Shown: one piece after another, positions 2,877 to 40,666 of the stretch
Layout of the letters: each line of letters begins with the position of its first letter
Position numbering within the stretch: the first letter of the stretch is position 1
Assembly: GCA_015067255.1 (NCBI GenBank)
Contig: SVMS01000006.1
Span: forward strand, 1 to 64,000
DNA length: 64,000 nt
From: Oscillospiraceae bacterium
Lineage (GTDB): Bacteria; Bacillota; Clostridia; Oscillospirales; SIG519
Reading direction: 5' to 3'
The notes under the pieces: model-generated
The model's database searches: none
Told to the model about the DNA's origin: nothing
Seen by the model: the letters and a program-made list of their open reading frames with translations, nothing else
Position numbers and translations under genes: made by a program

Positions 2877-2997
2877 GAGGCACTCTTCCTTACGAAGAGT
2901 GCCTCAGCTATATTCGCCTTACGGCGAGCGATATTGCTTCGCAGTGATATTATGCTTCGCATAGCTATATTGTCCTTCGGACAGCTAAGGGCGAAAT
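2877..2997 (+). repeat. Hairpin array A (GATAT-spaced mini-palindromes)
   Basis: A strong 12-bp hairpin (GAGGCACTCTTC, loop CTTAC, 2877-2905) just after sigG is followed by four short hairpins with unrelated stems: TCGCC/GGCGA, TGC/GCA, TATGC/GCATA and TGTCC/GGACA. Their loops are TTAC or TTC. Spacers are GCTATAT, GCGATAT, GTGATAT, GCTATAT, all of the form G-C/T-T/G-ATAT. The first hairpin may stop sigG transcription, although no T-run follows. All spacers are in one orientation, unlike arrays B, C and D. Confidence 0.8.
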
Positions 2998-3172: not shown

Positions 3173-5242
3173 ATGAAATTCTACCCCACCGAAAAAATCA
3201 GAAATGTTGCCCTGTTGGGACAGGGACACAGCGGAAAGACCGCTTTTGCAGAAGCTATGTTGTATATTACTAAAGCAACAGACAGATTGGGAAAGGTTGC
3301 CGACGGAACAACCGCTTCCGATTTTGATTCTGAAGAAATAAACAGAAAAATTTCTATTTCCACATCTGTAATTCCCGTTGAGCATGACGGATATAAAATC
3401 AACTTTTTGGACACTCCCGGATATTTTGATTTTGAGGGTGAGGTAATCGAGGGCGTTCGCCCTGCAGACAGCGCAATTATCGTTGTTTCAGGAAAATCGG
3501 GTATTGCCGTAGGTACCGATAAGGCTGTTAAGCTTACCGATATAAAGCATATCCCGAAAGCCTTCTTCATCTCAAAGCTTGACGAAGAAAACGCTGACTA
3601 TTTTAAAATTTTACAAAGCCTTAAGGATAAATACGGCGTACACGTATGCGCTTTGAATATTCCCTTGATTGAAAACGGAGTTATTAAGGGTATTCTTAAT
3701 GTTGTTGATATGATAGCCAGAGTTTATGACGAAAAGGGCAACAGAATAGTTGTAAACGTGCCCGACTCTTTAAAAGCCTTAGCCGAAGAGTACCGTGCCG
3801 CATTGGACGAGGCTATTGCCGAAACCGATGACGAGCTAATGGAAAAATTCTTCGCAGGCGAGAAATTTACCGATGAGGAAACTAAAAAGGGCGTGCGTTT
3901 AGGCATAAGCACAGGAACTCTTATTCCCGTTTTATGCGGCTCTTCTTCAACCTTTGTCGGCTTAGGCTCTGCTCTTGAAGCTATAACTGAGTTTTTCCCC
4001 GACCCCTCCATTTACACAGAGAGAGCTATGGCGGCAGCTCAGCAGCTTGAAATTGATGTTGAAACCGATTCTCCCACAAGCCTTTTGGTTTTCAAAACAG
4101 TTGCCGACCCATTTGTAGGAAAAATGTCCTACTTTAAGGTTGTAAGCGGAAATGCTACATCAGGTCAGTCCCTTTATAATTCAAGAACGGGAAATATTGA
4201 AAAATTAGGCCATATTTTCTACGTAAGAGGTAAAAAACAGGTAGAAACAGATAAAATAGGCGCAGGTGATATCGGCGTTGTAACAAAGCTTTCCGAAACA
4301 ATTACAGGAGATACTCTTTGCGATCCTGCAAGAAAGCTTACCTTTAAGGGCCTTAAATTCCCCACTCCCTGTCTTTCAATGGCAGTTGTTCCCGCCGCTA
4401 AGGGCGACGAGGAAAAAATCTCCGCAGGTATGAAAAAGCTTGCAGAAGAGGATTTGACCTTTACTCTTAAAAATAATACCGAAACAAAACAGATGGTTAT
4501 TACCGGAATGGGCGAAATGCATATAGACGTGCTTGTTTCAAAGCTTAAGAACAAATTCGGTACAGGCGTATCTCTGATAGCTCCTAAGGTTGCATACAGA
4601 GAGGCAATCCGTAAAAAAGTAAAGGTAGAGGGCAAGCACAAGAAGCAATCGGGCGGTCACGGTCAGTACGGTCACGTCTGGATTGAATTTGAGCCCTGTA
4701 TGGAAAACGAAGGCCTTACCTTTGAAGAGAAGATTTTCGGTGGCTCAGTGCCTAAGAATTTCCACCCTGCAGTTGAAAAGGGATTACAGGAATGTATGTC
4801 AAAGGGTGTTTTGGCAGGCTATCCCGTTGTAAATCTTAAGGCTACTTTGGTAGACGGCTCATATCACGATGTTGACTCTTCGGAAATGGCGTTTAAGGTT
4901 GCTGCTTCCCTTGCCTTCAAGGCAGGACTTACAGCCGCAAATCCCGTACTCTTAGAGCCGATAGGAAACCTTTCAGTTATCGTTCCCGACAGCCTTATGG
5001 GTGACGTTATAGGCGACCTTAACAAGCGTAGAGGTCACGTTATGGGAATGAGCCCCACCAACGAGGGCACTCAGATAATAGAGGCTCAGGTTCCTATGTC
5101 AGAGATGCACGATTACGCAATTGATTTGCGCTCTATGACAAGAGGCGCAGGAAGCTTTACCTTTGAGTTTGCTTGCTATCAGGACGCTCCTGCAAACGTT
5201 GCGCAAAAGGTTATAGCAGAATCACAAAAAGAACAGGAATAA
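3173..5242 (+). CDS. Elongation factor G-like GTPase (EF-G paralogue)
   Basis: A translational GTPase with the full EF-G domain order over 689 residues. G1 is GQGHSGKT (residues 16-23) and G3 is DTPG (80-83). G4 reads SKLD where canonical EF-G has NKxD, so it belongs to the divergent EF-G-like group found beside a normal fusA in many Firmicutes. Domain IV has the HKKQSGGHGQYGHV segment and the C-terminal domain ends TRGAGSFTFEF. The cellular role of these paralogues is not established; I would not call it the main translocase. The start was set at the ATG at 3173: AAAGG lies about ten bases before it, whereas the ATG at 3164 touches that site. A strong promoter precedes it and a terminator follows. 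Confidence 0.88.
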   Translation: MKFYPTEKIRNVALLGQGHSGKTAFAEAMLYITKATDRLGKVADGTTASDFDSEEINRKISISTSVIPVEHDGYKINFLDTPGYFDFEGEVIEGVRPADSAIIVVSGKSGIAVGTDKAVKLTDIKHIPKAFFISKLDEENADYFKILQSLKDKYGVHVCALNIPLIENGVIKGILNVVDMIARVYDEKGNRIVVNVPDSLKALAEEYRAALDEAIAETDDELMEKFFAGEKFTDEETKKGVRLGISTGTLIPVLCGSSSTFVGLGSALEAITEFFPDPSIYTERAMAAAQQLEIDVETDSPTSLLVFKTVADPFVGKMSYFKVVSGNATSGQSLYNSRTGNIEKLGHIFYVRGKKQVETDKIGAGDIGVVTKLSETITGDTLCDPARKLTFKGLKFPTPCLSMAVVPAAKGDEEKISAGMKKLAEEDLTFTLKNNTETKQMVITGMGEMHIDVLVSKLKNKFGTGVSLIAPKVAYREAIRKKVKVEGKHKKQSGGHGQYGHVWIEFEPCMENEGLTFEEKIFGGSVPKNFHPAVEKGLQECMSKGVLAGYPVVNLKATLVDGSYHDVDSSEMAFKVAASLAFKAGLTAANPVLLEPIGNLSVIVPDSLMGDVIGDLNKRRGHVMGMSPTNEGTQIIEAQVPMSEMHDYAIDLRSMTRGAGSFTFEFACYQDAPANVAQKVIAESQKEQE

Positions 5243-14733: not shown

Positions 14734-16278
14734 TTAATCGTCTATACTATTGTCGGTTGCTTTTTCGAAAATAGCCACAACTTCGTCGGAAGGCTTTTTG
14801 TCGAGTAATGTGAAAATAACAGTACAGATAGCGCCTGCAATAAAGCCGGGTACTATTTCATAAACCTGAGTATTTACGATAACAGCATCTGTAACGGTAC
14901 TTGTAAAGAGGATAAGCCATGCGATATCAACAACAGCACCGCCGATAATTCCTGCAACTGCACCTTTATATGTAAGACGCTTCCAGAAGAGAGAAAGAAT
15001 TACAACAGGACCGAAAGCAGCGCCGAATAAGCCCCAAGCGTTTTCAACCATAGCCATAATGTTTGAAGCCCAGGAATCAGCTTTTCCTAAACCGCTTGCC
15101 GCAATAGCAAAGCCTATAAGAGTAACGATAGCAACAACAAGACGGCCTACCCAAAGCATTTCCTTATCTCCTGCCTTGTTCTTACGAAAAATAGGATTGT
15201 AAAGGTCGCTTGTAAAGGAGGAGGAAGCAACTAAAAGCTGACTGTCAGCAGTGGACATAGCCGCAGCGATAATTGCAGAAAGCATAAGACCGGCAATAAA
15301 TCCGGGGAATATGTTTAAAACAACCTCGATGAATACACGGCTTTGAGAGCCTGCAGGTAAAAGCATCTGAGCTAAAGCAGAGCCGTCCTTTAAAAGATAG
15401 GTACGTCCAAGCCAAGCTATAACAATTGCAGCACCTAAGGTTAAAACAAGCCATACAATAGCAACTGTTGCTGATTTCTTAATAAGCTTTGAGCTTTTAA
15501 TACCCATAAAGCGAACTAAGATATGGGGCATTCCGAAATAGCCCAGTCCCCAGCCAAGACCTGAAACGATATCTGTCCAGGAAGCTGTAAAAGGATTGTT
15601 TCCGAAAGGAGCAACACCTTCAGCAAAAGCGGTTGCATAGGAAGCATCAAAGTTTCCGAACGTAACCATAAAAATAGGTGTAGCAAGAAGAGCTATAAGC
15701 ATTAAAATACCTTGGAAAAAGTCTGTCCAGCAAACAGCCTTATAGCCGCCCAAAAATGTATATGCAAGAACCAATACTGCAAATAAAAGCATAGCAAGCA
15801 TCTGGTGGTTGGCAAACCAAGGAATAACTGTGCCGAAAACAGCGGCGCCTGCATTGAAAGCAGAGGCAACATAAACTGTAAAGCTGATTAAAAAGATAAT
15901 AGCGCATATAACCTTAAGCGCAGGGTTAGTAGTTGCGAAACGGTTTGTCAAATACTGAGGTAAGGTTATAGCATCGTTTGAAGCCTTTGTAAAACGGCGC
16001 AGACGGCGGGCAACAAAAATCCAGTTAGCTATTGTACCCAAAGCCAAGCCGATACCAATCCAGGCTTTACCTAAACCAAAAGCTATAATACTTCCGGGGA
16101 AGCCCATTAAAAGCCAACCGCTCATATCTGAAGCCTGTGCGCTCATAGCGGTTACCCAAGGGCCCATTGATCTGTTTCCTAAAAAATAATCCTTTTCACC
16201 ACTGCCCTTGGAGGTGGCAAAGAAAAAGATACCTATTCCAAGCACAATGAGAAAGTAAAGAATAAATGCAATTGTCAT
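14734..16278 (-). CDS. Sodium:solute symporter, PutP (Na+/proline) type
   Basis: A 514-residue integral membrane transporter of the SSS family with about 13 membrane helices. The family hallmarks are present: GNRSMGPWVTAMSAQASDMS near the N-terminus, SGWLLMGFPGSIIAFGLGKAW, LPQYLTNRF, and a conserved AMSTADSQLLVASS in helix 8 that supplies Na+-coordinating Ser/Thr residues. Overall similarity is to PutP, so Na+-coupled proline uptake is the best guess, but substrate assignment within this family is unreliable. GGGAG lies seven bases before the ATG. It stands alone, with a terminator behind it and 1 kb of repeat-rich DNA ahead of it. Confidence 0.88.
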   Translation of the reverse strand: MTIAFILYFLIVLGIGIFFFATSKGSGEKDYFLGNRSMGPWVTAMSAQASDMSGWLLMGFPGSIIAFGLGKAWIGIGLALGTIANWIFVARRLRRFTKASNDAITLPQYLTNRFATTNPALKVICAIIFLISFTVYVASAFNAGAAVFGTVIPWFANHQMLAMLLFAVLVLAYTFLGGYKAVCWTDFFQGILMLIALLATPIFMVTFGNFDASYATAFAEGVAPFGNNPFTASWTDIVSGLGWGLGYFGMPHILVRFMGIKSSKLIKKSATVAIVWLVLTLGAAIVIAWLGRTYLLKDGSALAQMLLPAGSQSRVFIEVVLNIFPGFIAGLMLSAIIAAAMSTADSQLLVASSSFTSDLYNPIFRKNKAGDKEMLWVGRLVVAIVTLIGFAIAASGLGKADSWASNIMAMVENAWGLFGAAFGPVVILSLFWKRLTYKGAVAGIIGGAVVDIAWLILFTSTVTDAVIVNTQVYEIVPGFIAGAICTVIFTLLDKKPSDEVVAIFEKATDNSIDD

Positions 16279-16804: not shown

Positions 16805-16919
16805 TTAAAACAAAAATATAGAAAAAGAGAAAAACTCCTTTCCTATATCATTTTTAAGAATTAGCTTTAATTATTTATGTTTTTCTTTTTCTGCGGTCTG
16901 TGCCTTTTTCGACAGTCTG

Positions 16920-16950
16920 AAAGCAAGAACGGTTTCGTTCTTGCTTTTTT
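16920..16950 (+). terminator. Strong hairpin with T-run
   Basis: AAAGCAAGAACG (16920-16931), loop GTTT, CGTTCTTGCTTT (16936-16947), then more T. It has terminator form, but there is no gene immediately to its left on this strand. It borders hairpin array D. Confidence 0.75.
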
Positions 16951-16951
16951 A

Positions 16952-17090
16952 ATGAATTGCAATCTACGATTGCATGAATTGAAAGTAAATACTTTCATGA
17001 ATTACCTACGGCATAAATTGTGCCCAAGGGCACATTATTGCAATTCAATTCATGGCGTAAGCCAATTTATGATGCAAAGCATCAATTCAT
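16952..17090. repeat. Hairpin array D (ATGAATT-spaced, palindromic as a whole)
   Basis: The spacer ATGAATT occurs at 16952, 16974 and 16997. In the right arm the inverse spacer appears as AATTCAT at 17047, AATTTAT (one change) at 17064 and AATTCAT at 17084. Between spacers are short hairpins of unrelated sequence: GCAATC/GATTGC, GAAAGTA/TACTTTC, GTGCCC/GGGCAC, GGC/GCC and GATGC/GCATC, with two- to four-base loops. The architecture matches arrays B and C, with a different spacer. Confidence 0.8.
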
Positions 17091-17277
17091 TTCCCAAAAT
17101 CAATATTTTTTTCATTTTGGGGAAATAGAGCTTGTTTATATCAAACCTCTGCTTAATACTTTTTCAAAAGCTTTAGTTTTTCTTCAAATAATACTTTATT
17201 AAGTTGATTTTAAAGAATAAAAAATATTCAATAGATGTAAACGGCGGAGCCGCACCCTTTTTTCTTTTAGGCGGGAT

Positions 17278-18507
17278 TTATACCGCCGCTATTATGTCGC
17301 AGCAGTATAAAAACACCGATGCGCTCCAGCCCATCATTGTAGGCATTTCGTATTCGTCGGTTACGTCTAAGGTACCTGTTACACAGTTGTATTTTTCCCA
17401 TAGACCGCCTGTTTTTTCAAAATTATTTACAGTTGCATTTATATATTTTGATGCAAGCTCTTTTGCTTTTTCTTCTTGCTTACTGTTCAAAAGAGCTTCT
17501 ATTGCAAAAAAGTGAAGAGGGGGCCACGCATTTGGAAATTCCCACTGCAGCGGTCTTTCACCCTTGTTCTGACACGCCGCTATTCCGTGGGGATAGTAAA
17601 GAGCATCGAAAACTGTTTTTATAATAGACTGCGAGTTTTTCTCAACGTCAATATTTGCCCATAAAGGATAAAGCATAGCTACGCTGATAACATCGGAAAG
17701 AGTGTTTGTTTTATAATTATAGTCATAAAAACAGCCAGTTTTACTGTTAAAGCAATATTTATACATTAGCTCCTTGCGTTTGTTTCTTCTGTTTTCCCAA
17801 AGAGCTTCCGTTTTGGTGTTGAGCTCCTTTGAAAAATATAGCATATTGCTTTCAAATTTATAAAGAATACTGTTTAAATCTATGGGGATATAGTCAGCGC
17901 CCTTGCCGTTGTAGCGACAACAGAAATCCCAACCGCTTTCAGCCTCGGCAAGATAATTTTTTGCCATATCTATAAGGTTATCGGGCCTCTCAAGCTTTAA
18001 GCGTTCAAGCATATATTCGCCGAAAACAATAAGATAATCGTCGTCTGAGGAGTGATAATATCTGTTAAGTCCTGTGGGGGTCATTCTTTCAGTTTGCCAG
18101 AAGCTATATTCCTTTTCCAATATAGAATATGCTCTTTCAAGCCATTTTTTGTCCCCGTAAGTCTTATATAAATCCAAAACAGCTTCCGATAGAAGAGGGG
18201 GCTGACTTCTTTTCATTCCTATATGGGAATTGTCGTTGCCTACGTGCCCGAATTTTTCCACCTGATAAAGCATATTTTCAACGTTTTTGAGAGCCTGCTC
18301 AGACTCGTTGCTTTTGATAAGTCCTATATTTATAAAATAAGTGTCCCAATAAAACTGAGTTTTGCAAAAAAATCCGTTCATAGACGGAGTTGAAAAGGGA
18401 TAGGGCAACGGATAAATTTCTTTTTCGTCAACCTCTCCGTCAAAAAGACAGTTTTCCCAATTTTTATATATGTAATTTTTTACTTTGTCTATTGAAATTT
18501 TGTCCAT
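17278..18507 (-). CDS. GH37 (trehalase)-like (alpha/alpha)6 glycosidase
   Basis: A 409-residue cytoplasmic enzyme without a signal peptide. Trehalase-family signatures are visible: FYWDTYF near residue 50 (family WDxY), QWEFPNAWPPLHFFAIEALL around 310 (family QWDxPxGWxP) and a C-terminal DVTDEYEMPTMMGWSASVFL in place of GGGGEY-Q-GFGWTNGV. It is shorter than true trehalases (about 500 or more), and its partner genes are uronate and rhamnose enzymes, so the substrate is probably a pectin-derived oligosaccharide rather than trehalose (inference). The start is the ATG at 18507. The TGAGG six bases before it overlaps the stop of the GH4 gene, pointing to coupled translation; an in-frame TTG at 18519 has no ribosome site. 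Confidence 0.75.
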   Translation of the reverse strand: MDKISIDKVKNYIYKNWENCLFDGEVDEKEIYPLPYPFSTPSMNGFFCKTQFYWDTYFINIGLIKSNESEQALKNVENMLYQVEKFGHVGNDNSHIGMKRSQPPLLSEAVLDLYKTYGDKKWLERAYSILEKEYSFWQTERMTPTGLNRYYHSSDDDYLIVFGEYMLERLKLERPDNLIDMAKNYLAEAESGWDFCCRYNGKGADYIPIDLNSILYKFESNMLYFSKELNTKTEALWENRRNKRKELMYKYCFNSKTGCFYDYNYKTNTLSDVISVAMLYPLWANIDVEKNSQSIIKTVFDALYYPHGIAACQNKGERPLQWEFPNAWPPLHFFAIEALLNSKQEEKAKELASKYINATVNNFEKTGGLWEKYNCVTGTLDVTDEYEMPTMMGWSASVFLYCCDIIAAV

Positions 18508-18515
18508 ATTAAGCC

Positions 18516-19901
18516 TCAATTAAATTTAATATATTTTTTGGTGTTATCTATCATTTTATCAAAAAGCGTCTTTGCGTCTGAAAGACTGAGGGTTACCTGC
18601 GGGTCATTGCAAAATGCCTTGAAGGCATCATAGGGTCTTGCGTTGACTGCGGCATCTACAACGGTTTCCTGATTGTATACGTGTCTTGCAATAAGACCTA
18701 AAACAGAGTCGGGAAGCTTGGGAGCACTTATAGGAATTATCTGATTGTTTCTGAATACCGCATTTGTTTCCACTACGGCATCTAAGGGTAATTCCTTTAT
18801 CTGATTTTTATTTGGCAGATTTACATTTGTAACAAGGTCGCCTAAGCCTACAAGAGCTTTTATCTGCCTTACTCCCTCTTCGCCTGTGGGAGTTATTGTA
18901 AGCTCCTTTTCGTTTCTTACATATTTTTGTGTTTCCTCAAGCTTTTCCTTTAAGGACTGCTTACGCCATTGGGCAGTAGTTATTGAAAAATGCCATTCTT
19001 TAATTGTTTCAAGGTCTTTTAAATACCAATATCTCGGTGCAAATTCAGCTAAGTGACGGTCTCCCGCCGCCGCCATTACGCCGTATCTCTTATAAAGGTC
19101 AAATTTTACTCGCTCGTGGGAAACAAAGGTGTTGCTCAGCCATAAGTCCTGCTCCTTTTCCCAATATCCGCTTTCGTAATGCTTTTCAACGAATTTATCG
19201 TAAATTTCCATTAAGTCAATATTCTGATAGCGAGCGCTGTTTATCCAGGTAAAATGGTTTATTCCCGAAACGCTTACCTTGATTTCTTTTCTGTCAACCT
19301 TTTCCATTCCCGTAAATTCACTTAAGGCGTTGGAAAGAAGCTCCTGCGCTCCGAAAACCTCGTGACAGCACCCGAAAGCCTTTATCTGCGGGAAAACTTT
19401 ATAAAGGGTGCGTACGCACATAGTCATAGGATTTGTATAGTTTATAACAAAGGCTTCGGGACAAAACTCCTTTATAGCTTCTGCAATTTCCATATACATA
19501 GGCACAGTTCTTAAGGCTCTTAAAATACCGCCGGGACCCACAGTATCGCCTACGGACTGATAAATGCCGTATTTCTGAGGCTCTTCAAGGTCGGAAGCCA
19601 TTTCGTCAAAGGTGCCGGGTAAAATGGAGATAATAACAAAATCGGCACCTGTCAAAGCCTCCTTCAAAGAGGTAACAGCCTTATAAACCCAATTGCTCTG
19701 AGCATTTTCAAGAGTTGAAATTTTATTACCTATAATTTCATTGTCATAGGCTGCCTGCATATCTATATCATAAAGCTTTACTGTGCCGCAAAGGCTTTTT
19801 TCCAAAGCTAAATCGCTCATAAGACCTCTTGCCCAGCCTCTTGAACCGCCGCCTATATAGGCTATATTTATACCCTCTGCAAAATCCTTGTAAATTTTCA
19901 T
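18516..19901 (-). CDS. GH4 family glycosidase, probable alpha-galacturonidase (LplD-like)
   Basis: A 461-residue NAD+- and Mn2+-dependent glycosidase of family GH4. The N-terminus has the Rossmann motif NIAYIGGGSRGW. Further on are INYTNPMTM, the metal-binding Cys in CHEVFG (about residue 190) and SGINHFTW. The CHEV type of Cys motif and overall similarity fit LplD of Bacillus, shown to be an alpha-galacturonidase, rather than a phospho-beta-glucosidase. It would release galacturonate for UxaC, encoded divergently. AAGGAG precedes the ATG. The gene is driven by a consensus promoter with a LacI-type operator in its leader, and the GH37-like gene follows directly. Confidence 0.85.
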   Translation of the reverse strand: MKIYKDFAEGINIAYIGGGSRGWARGLMSDLALEKSLCGTVKLYDIDMQAAYDNEIIGNKISTLENAQSNWVYKAVTSLKEALTGADFVIISILPGTFDEMASDLEEPQKYGIYQSVGDTVGPGGILRALRTVPMYMEIAEAIKEFCPEAFVINYTNPMTMCVRTLYKVFPQIKAFGCCHEVFGAQELLSNALSEFTGMEKVDRKEIKVSVSGINHFTWINSARYQNIDLMEIYDKFVEKHYESGYWEKEQDLWLSNTFVSHERVKFDLYKRYGVMAAAGDRHLAEFAPRYWYLKDLETIKEWHFSITTAQWRKQSLKEKLEETQKYVRNEKELTITPTGEEGVRQIKALVGLGDLVTNVNLPNKNQIKELPLDAVVETNAVFRNNQIIPISAPKLPDSVLGLIARHVYNQETVVDAAVNARPYDAFKAFCNDPQVTLSLSDAKTLFDKMIDNTKKYIKFN

Positions 19902-36690: not shown

Positions 36691-36864
36691 TGCGGCAAAG
36701 TCTTGCCGCAATTATATTCGTGCTTCGCCCGAGCGATATATCTTCGATGCGATATGCGGCAAGCCGCGCGATATACGGCTACGCCGTGAGAAAAGACACG
36801 AATATAATATCGCTTTTGCTTTTTTAGCAAAAATATCGCTGCAAACGGCAGTTTGCAATATCAC
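36691..36864. repeat. Hairpin array B (GCGATAT left arm, ATATCGC right arm)
   Basis: It begins with the hairpin TGCGGCAA/TTGCCGCA (36691-36710). The spacer GCGATAT occurs at 36733, 36749 and 36768. After a centre framed by ATTATATTCGTG (36711-36722) and its inverse CACGAATATAAT (36797-36808), the spacer is reversed: ATATCGC at 36807 and 36833, ATATCAC at 36858. Hairpins between spacers have unrelated stems: ATC/GAT, GCGGC/GCCGC, ACGGC/GCCGT, TTTTGC/GCAAAA and TGCAAAC/GTTTGCA. It lies between ptsH and uvrC, just upstream of the uvrC ribosome site. Confidence 0.82.
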
Positions 36865-40422: not shown

Positions 40423-40461
40423 AAAATCACCCTTTTGATTTTTTACAAAAACCCCGCATCA

Positions 40462-40666
40462 GCGTGTTATCCTTAACGGAAAACACGCAGCGATATAAAT
40501 TCCTTGCGTAATTTGCGATATTCCCTACGGGAGCGATATAAGGCTACGCCTTGCGATATGCAAAAGCGTGAGGGGGAATTTATATCATATCGCGTTGGAG
40601 CGAGGCGACAACATATCGCACGAGCAAAGCGAGTATATCGCGTTTGCGTGGCAAACATATCGCCTA
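40462..40666. repeat. Hairpin array C (four GCGATAT then four ATATCGC)
   Basis: The first hairpin is GCGTGTT/AACACGC (40462-40488). GCGATAT occurs at 40490, 40515, 40533 and 40553; its reverse complement ATATCGC at 40587, 40613, 40635 and 40657. Stems between spacers are unrelated, for example TCCC/GGGA, AAGGC/GCCTT, GTTTGC/GCAAAC; loops are often TAC. Around the turning point, GATATAAATTCC (40492-40503) pairs with GGAATTTATATC (40575-40586). Two right-arm units are imperfect hairpins. The array fills the 329 bases between two glycosidase genes; I see nothing else there. Confidence 0.85.

Follow-up and report, generated by a model that had tools for sequence, protein, structure and literature searches.

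Results

Anatomy of array D

The window, a 64,000-nucleotide stretch of DNA, is a section of contig C6 of an Oscillospiraceae genome (1.84 Mb in 54 contigs), and within it the feature that we call array D is flanked by a symporter-like gene and a trehalase-like gene and overlaps neither (Table 1). Read letter by letter, array D has the order S1-hp1-S2-hp2-S3-hp3-S4-hp4-X'-S'1-hp5-S'2-hp6-S'3, in which the inserts between the 7-nt spacers (hereafter tags) are short hairpins, perfect or nearly so. The initial annotation had named six spacers here, and direct reading confirmed the positions of all of them; what it had overlooked was a further left spacer, ATAAATT, and the joint X', which lies immediately 5' of S'1. 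X' is the exact reverse complement of X, which consists of the suffix of S1 and the 5' arm of hp1, and it could displace the local pairing of hp1.

Single-strand folding of the region 16940-17100 gave z = -4.9 as RNA and z = -5.6 as DNA, with 0 of 200 shuffles equally stable, and Rfam returned 0 matches at gathering score across the window. A terminator-like hairpin, also found next to several other copies, adjoins array D, and a second dispersed hairpin abuts its right end. The motif TTTTTCGACAGTCTGAAAGC is dispersed and precedes terminator-like hairpins, both in the window and in L060 (near 1500), and it also occurs in another family of the order.

Table 1. Array D, its surroundings and the other arrays of the window (window coordinates)
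Feature	Position	Strand	Basis or remark
Half-array, single orientation	2907-2990		degenerate tags GCTATAT, GCGATAT, GTGATAT, GCTATAT plus hairpins
Symporter-like gene	14734-16278	-	
Motif TTTTTCGACAGTCTGAAAGC	16904-16919		dispersed
Terminator-like hairpin AAAGCAAGAACG..CGTTCTTGCTTTTTTA	16920..16951	.	adjoins array D; also next to several other copies
Array D	16952-17090		read letter by letter
Left half, S1-hp1-S2-hp2-S3-hp3-S4	16952..17019	+	hairpins also in other copies
S1 ATGAATT	16952-16958	+	direct reading
X GAATTGCAAT (S1 suffix and 5' arm of hp1)	16954..16963	+	exact reverse complement of X'
hp1	16959-16973	+	direct reading
S2 ATGAATT	16974-16980	+	direct reading
hp2	16981-16996	+	direct reading
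S3 ATGAATT	16997-17003	+	direct reading
hp3	17004-17012	+	direct reading
S4 ATAAATT	17013-17019	+	direct reading
hp4 GTGCCC..GGGCAC (17020-17033) and 3-nt linker	17020..17036	+	direct reading, copies
X' ATTGCAATTC	17037..17046	+	exact reverse complement of 16954-16963
Right half, S'1-hp5-S'2-hp6-S'3	17047..17090	+	direct reading
S'1 AATTCAT	17047-17053	+	direct reading
hp5	17054-17063	+	direct reading
S'2 AATTTAT	17064-17070	+	direct reading
hp6	17071-17083	+	direct reading
S'3 AATTCAT	17084-17090	+	direct reading
Second dispersed hairpin TTTCCCAAAATC..	17090..17125	.	abuts right end of array D
Trehalase-like gene	17278-18519	-	
Shorter GCGATAT-family array	36733..36862	.	design as array D
Complete GCGATAT-family element	40460..40663	+	outer hairpin hp0, S1-hp1 ... 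X' (GGAATTTATATC) S'1 ... S'4; same family as mobile copies in G015

Arrays in the source genome and their tags

We scanned the source genome for any 7-mer present in at least four copies at a spacing of 13-45 nt with at least two palindromic inserts, and this identified 20 arrays in 519,352 nt. As a control, an equal amount of sequence was resampled three times from an order-1 Markov model (1.56 Mb in total), and this gave 0 arrays. Array D contains only three exact ATGAATT copies in a run and therefore falls outside the 20; it was recovered at a three-copy threshold. The initial annotation had held that its reading would fail if arbitrary spacers produced flipped series as often. All 7-mers were allowed in the scan and only eight gave arrays (ATATCGC 6, AATTCAT 5, ATTTAGC 3 and ATATCGA 2, with ATATCAT, ATATCAC, ATGTAAT and ATGAAAT 1 each). 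Orientation changed once in 11 of the 20 arrays, twice in four and not at all in five. That refutation therefore fails, and the suggestion of more than one family in the same genome is supported. The flip of orientation is part of the design without being universal: some copies are lone halves, and others have their halves reversed or in permuted order. All 20 are intergenic, save for overlaps with short or over-extended ORFs, 14 lie on contig C9, and arrays often stand 40-100 bp from the adjacent gene. Arrays also generate spurious small ORFs.

Written in the direction of the left half, the tags mostly fit RYGAWWT, which is a summary made by hand and not a fitted motif: GCGATAT, TCGATAT, GTGATAT, ATGATAT, ATGAATT, ATGAAAT, GTGAAAT and ATGATTT fit it or are one base off, and GCTAAAT, GGTAAAT and ATGTAAT fit loosely. 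The array families therefore look like variants of one tag, and the spacer of array D is not the entirely different one that it had been taken for.

A shared architecture with a conserved joint

The canonical element, which is found in several families of the order, reads S1-hp1-S2-hp2-S3-hp3-S4-hp4-linker-X'-S'1-hp5-S'2-hp6-S'3-hp7-S'4. We parsed 29 canonical arrays, of which 22 have four left tags and seven have three left spacers. X' was scorable, defined as a match of at least 8 bp, in 19 of the 22 (L005, L137 and L176 fell under 8 bp), and in 19 of these 19 its unique best partner was the outermost tag and hairpin arm; the scoring took the best-matching orientation, which raises scores and does not favor the outermost arm. 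The X arm varies across families and genomes (AAATCC, AAATTCC, CCGTTCC, GCC, GCAACC), indicating that X and X' change together. Because hp1 can either pair locally or cede its first arm to X', the element has two potentially competing folds. The proposal that architecture rather than sequence is conserved is supported by this joint, whose pairing is kept while its sequence drifts.

Hairpin loops and the probable folding strand

Inserts from the window and the sampled genomes were pooled into a set of 213 (175 distinct). The contig stretches with a generic pattern, at least 120 in number and for the most part due to chance or to repeats in coding sequence that lack palindromic inserts, were all excluded from the stem and loop statistics. 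Related copies were treated as independent here, as in our other counts of stems, loops and mismatches. Of the 213 inserts, 177 had a perfect stem of 3 bp or more anchored at the insert ends, compared with about 5 expected from shuffles, and all four Watson-Crick pair types were used at every stem position. In 237 inserts, loops read on the S' strand were GNA in 47 of 83 3-nt cases and GNNA in 37 of 76 4-nt cases, and the S strand of the same inserts gave one GNA and one GNNA. Loop polarity follows the tag, so the inversion of one half relative to the other is a property of the DNA, as it is for transposon ends.

RNA tetraloops would favor GNRA, and here GNRA was not preferred (18 GNRA versus 19 GNYA loops); GNA and GNNA loops without a GNRA preference thus favor folded DNA over RNA. 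Such loops, when closed by G-C pairs, make extraordinarily stable DNA mini-hairpins, according to an excerpt of PMC4686876. G·T pairs on the S strand numbered 3 of 1014 and were rarer than A·C (3 versus 13, p = 0.02, from copies that are not independent), a small asymmetry that points weakly to the S' strand.

Dispersed copies of array D

A BLAST search with array D against its own genome gave 30 matches, neighboring hairpins included. The left module (four tags and four hairpins) recurs with 96% identity over 99 bp at C9:46413, in other surroundings, and with 86-89% identity at four other places on C9. The hairpins had been described as unrelated; the same hairpins occur in the same order in other copies, and hp1 is tied to X'. 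By its anatomy and its dispersed copies (up to 96% identical), array D belongs to the same superfamily as the other arrays, and we infer that it has itself moved.

Array D and the copy at C9:22.2 kb have the left module first and the right module second, and the order is reversed at C9:46.4, 7.7 and 13.9 kb. This swap looks like circular permutation, although deletion from tandem copies would produce it too. ATGAATT modules in both orders are seen among the copies in the window (16952-17090) and in L002, L003, L005 and L007, and where the order is swapped, the T-rich joint is similar to what the ends of array D would form if joined, as expected from a circular intermediate. Among 12 aligned ATGAATT modules, 94.5% of stem cells were paired, above all 500 shuffles, with seven double-change cells. 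Covariation was modest: both sides changed in 3 of 20 pairs, which is unexceptional (46 of 500 shuffles), and additional types of pair were fewer than in the shuffles.

GCGATAT elements adjoin or interrupt ATGAATT modules (L007; L010:5358-5541), a placement that suggests nested insertion. The elements at L010:4276-4460, L010:5358-5541 and L009:6258-6445 share a nearly identical half with GCGATAT/ATATCGC tags and differ in the half that it is joined to, which has ATATCGA tags in some and ATATCGC tags in others, their halves having been swapped as modules. Half-arrays around a putative cysE-like ORF at L141 resembled a composite element, a reading that we set aside because more half-arrays adjoin it.

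Insertion into terminators in G015

In G015, from another family of the order, a tail search recovered nine near-identical GCGATAT elements with defined ends (TTAGCGC...ACAATAC), and the six copies that we compared are 261-290 bp long. When exact arms were checked, the flanks of eight of the nine were mutually perfect complements over 8-18 bp, in a sequence that changes from locus to locus. These eight lie between the two halves of a terminator stem that has an A tract and a T tract on its outer sides; L284 is the lone exception. Five own-pair scores in the six-copy flank comparison (11-18) beat every mismatched pairing of the respective left flank, and copies L292, L294 and L295 also have complementary flanks on inspection. 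At the murA site, the congener G039 has an intact terminator with the array absent, and the array was not detected in the eight family loci examined, G039 included, out of 20 among the matches listed. The split terminator stems in eight of nine copies show that the GCGATAT subfamily of G015 inserts into the loops of intrinsic terminators; selection for the least harmful sites, instead of targeting, could account for this placement.

The nine left flanks end differently, and no fixed tetra- or pentanucleotide was found 5' of the left end. Outside the G015 subfamily, flank complementarity was not above that of mismatched pairs in 58 arrays, and direct repeats expected of target duplication were not above mismatched pairs in 60 arrays, except at L304, with 18 bp, and in L074, where the copies are in tandem. 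A complementary flank pair was not found by eye at array D, nor did array D and the ATGAATT copies yield an empty site, an excision product or a target duplication. The tail search for an autonomous parent in G015, G039, G000 and G019 returned gene-free copies only; one match in G000 was rejected as a parent because it looks like coding sequence and chance.

Spread among genomes and phages

Of 196 genomes sampled from the class, 19 had GCGATAT runs, and four of these (G176, G071, G068 and G115) we judged by eye to be chance; a reversed control pattern gave no such genome. Similarity to the ATGAATT array was present in seven, and to the GCGATAT array in 10, of the 39 sampled genomes of the order, the source genome included in both counts. 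Some gut Clostridia carry dozens of arrays per genome, and clear arrays among the matches listed came mostly from Clostridia MAGs, with one record labeled Synergistes. Among 78 viral contigs with the pattern, clear arrays were found only in L304 (1428-1571, 4352-4522) and L343 (5008-5077, 7057-7126, 10041-10159), two phage contigs on which they sit between genes for terminase, portal and capsid proteins. A direct repeat of 18 bp borders the L304 array at 4352, and viral contig L358 carries a half-array-like run. Searches of the phage collection matched neither the GCGATAT array nor array D, and the plasmid collection likewise held no match to the GCGATAT array.

Contig C9 (G000) holds dnaA, gyrA, gyrB and a recF-like gene. 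It gave 13 array calls over 55 kb, one of which (ATAAAAC) looks like chance, and the source genome outside C9 gave 10 in 464 kb, array D included and some chance-like. Arrays near these genes on C9 (L009-L011) are about tenfold denser than in other sampled stretches. The dnaA regions of 12 other genomes gave 13 raw calls in 365 kb, nine of them counted as real and seven of these on a 12-kb dnaA contig of G027, and other stretches gave three raw calls in 316 kb; the other 11 genomes showed little or no excess. A link to oriC was therefore rejected as not general, the excess being concentrated in G027.

Candidate enzymes

A nuclease or recombinase partner had been suggested for the arrays. We checked for Y1 and IS110 transposases, and neither tracks the arrays. 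Y1 (PF01797) occurs in 18 of 39 genomes and its presence did not follow array abundance: G003, G023, G027, G028 and G031 have many GATAT runs and no Y1 match, and G008, G034, G036 and G037 have Y1 and few runs. Likewise, IS110 (PF01548), above cut-off in seven of 39 genomes, did not follow abundance and was above cut-off in none of the array-rich G000, G003, G015, G019, G023 and G027. Both Y1/RAYT and IS110 were rejected as movers on these grounds.

Discussion

Array D is probably a copy of a non-coding mobile element of ~140-290 bp that belongs to a superfamily in gut Clostridia and some phages, and our best reading of this superfamily is that its members are non-autonomous mobile elements, similar to REPINs and MITEs but new in their architecture. 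Its members combine a common anatomy, pairing kept amid sequence change, dispersal within a genome and, for the GCGATAT elements of G015, insertion into terminator loops. Each element consists of two inverted half-arrays of tag-and-hairpin units, with a tag of roughly RYGAWWT, a stem of 3-8 bp and a loop of mostly 3-4 nt, and of a conserved joint X' that can pair with the outermost tag and hairpin. The working form may be single-stranded DNA folded into a hairpin array on the S' strand, for instance as lagging-strand template or as an excised circle, and an enzyme acting in trans would read the tag-hairpin repeats at both ends; array D itself may have moved by this folded-strand route. An element that lands next to or within a terminator, and that brings along or adjoins a terminator-like hairpin, would do the host little harm.

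Several known systems share parts of this description. MITEs, such as the P. gingivalis MITE with a minisatellite, and the pneumococcal BOX and RUP elements are short, gene-free, multi-copy and modular, BOX having repeated inner modules. The arrays are likewise short, ORF-free and dispersed in many copies; unlike MITEs, they are generally without target-site duplication, no autonomous parent turned up in the four genomes searched, and their ends are hairpin arrays instead of simple terminal repeats. Insertion into pre-existing sites was seen for the G015 copies only, not for the ATGAATT arrays. In integron attC sites, which have R''/L''/L'/R' boxes and go with an integrase, structure is conserved over sequence and one strand is folded; we noticed no L and R boxes in the arrays, and layout and size differ. 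Group IIC introns and hairpin-targeting IS elements pick terminator or palindrome targets; the arrays, in contrast, are under 300 bp, have no intron RNA match or gene and lie inside the terminator loop. The fixed target tetra- or pentanucleotide of IS200/IS605-type ends was not found at the nine G015 sites, IS110 transposase was above cut-off in none of the array-rich genomes G000, G003, G015, G019, G023 and G027, and CRISPR arrays differ in having repeats of 24-48 nt and unique, non-palindromic spacers, whereas here the repeats are 7 nt and the inserts palindromic.

We consider it unlikely that the arrays are instead RNA or transcript-end structures that serve the host (a 3'-UTR stabilizer, a terminator cluster or a regulatory RNA) and are held in place by selection. 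Since the two halves run in opposite orientations, no transcript has all units in one sense, and the lack of GNRA preference (18 versus 19), the rarity of G·T pairs on the S strand (3 of 1014), the absence of an Rfam family at gathering score and the scatter of copies to unrelated sites and phages all stand against a role that would otherwise suit the intergenic position, often 40-100 bp from a neighboring gene, the strong fold and the adjoining terminator-like hairpins.

Less likely still, the arrays could be a product of mutation, with template switching at quasi-palindromes making and perfecting hairpins and tags without selection or an enzyme. Quasi-palindrome correction yields perfect palindromes of unrelated sequence, as this account expects, and half-arrays, reversed pairs and permuted orders are indeed seen; it leaves unexplained the fixed tag, the 4+4 layout, the tie of X' to the outermost hairpin, the choice of loops and the nine near-identical copies at separate sites. 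Template switching of this kind may well add to the perfection of the stems.

REP and REPIN sequences are akin in spirit to the mobile elements that we favor. Excerpts of PMC3733652 and PMC6006769 define them by a tag, GTAG/GTGG or CGTC, that stands at the base of a palindrome 20-40 bp long, and an excerpt of PMC3116915 describes REPINs as inverted doublets forming hairpins in single-stranded DNA or mRNA. Like REP, BIME and REPIN sequences with their RAYTs, the arrays are small intergenic palindromes, form inverted doublets, are non-autonomous and fall into per-genome families, with folded single-stranded DNA proposed as the moving form. They differ in having three to four different hairpins per half that share one 7-nt tag while hairpin sequence is free, in keeping a long-range X/X' pair and in lacking a GTAG-type foot and Y1 tracking. 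Inverted pairing of units is present, a REP tag is not, and Y1 is missing from the array-rich G003, G023, G027, G028 and G031. Despite palindromic, intergenic, inverted doublets in per-genome families and a single-strand logic as in the excerpts of PMC3116915 and PMC6006769, it is highly improbable that the arrays are REPs or REPINs in the strict sense, with a RAYT or another Y1 transposase as their mover, since no GTAG/GTGG/CGTC tag stands beside the hairpins, Y1 presence does not match run abundance in 39 genomes and a conserved tetranucleotide is absent beside the left end at the nine G015 sites.

No description of such arrays was found in the literature searched, which omitted most subscription papers and all preprints, and none of the repeat or RNA families known from these sources accounts for them; the group is widespread and apparently undescribed. 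Going beyond REPIN/MITE-like elements, a tentative and rather doubtful extension is that the arrays form a separate class of mobile DNA common to bacteria and phages, one that would move as a folded single strand, be recognized by a series of tagged, ultra-stable DNA mini-hairpins at each end instead of by fixed end sequences, use X/X' as a two-state switch between local hp1 and long-range closure, be moved by a putative new enzyme and be aimed at hairpin loops. If this were true, a circular intermediate would have left its trace in the ATGAATT copies with circularly permuted order. The arrays are a clean natural case in which the folding of a nucleic acid is conserved while its sequence is free, and they point to which DNA strand folds. 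They may shape transcript ends, and they offer a route to a new DNA-handling enzyme that reads structure, not sequence.
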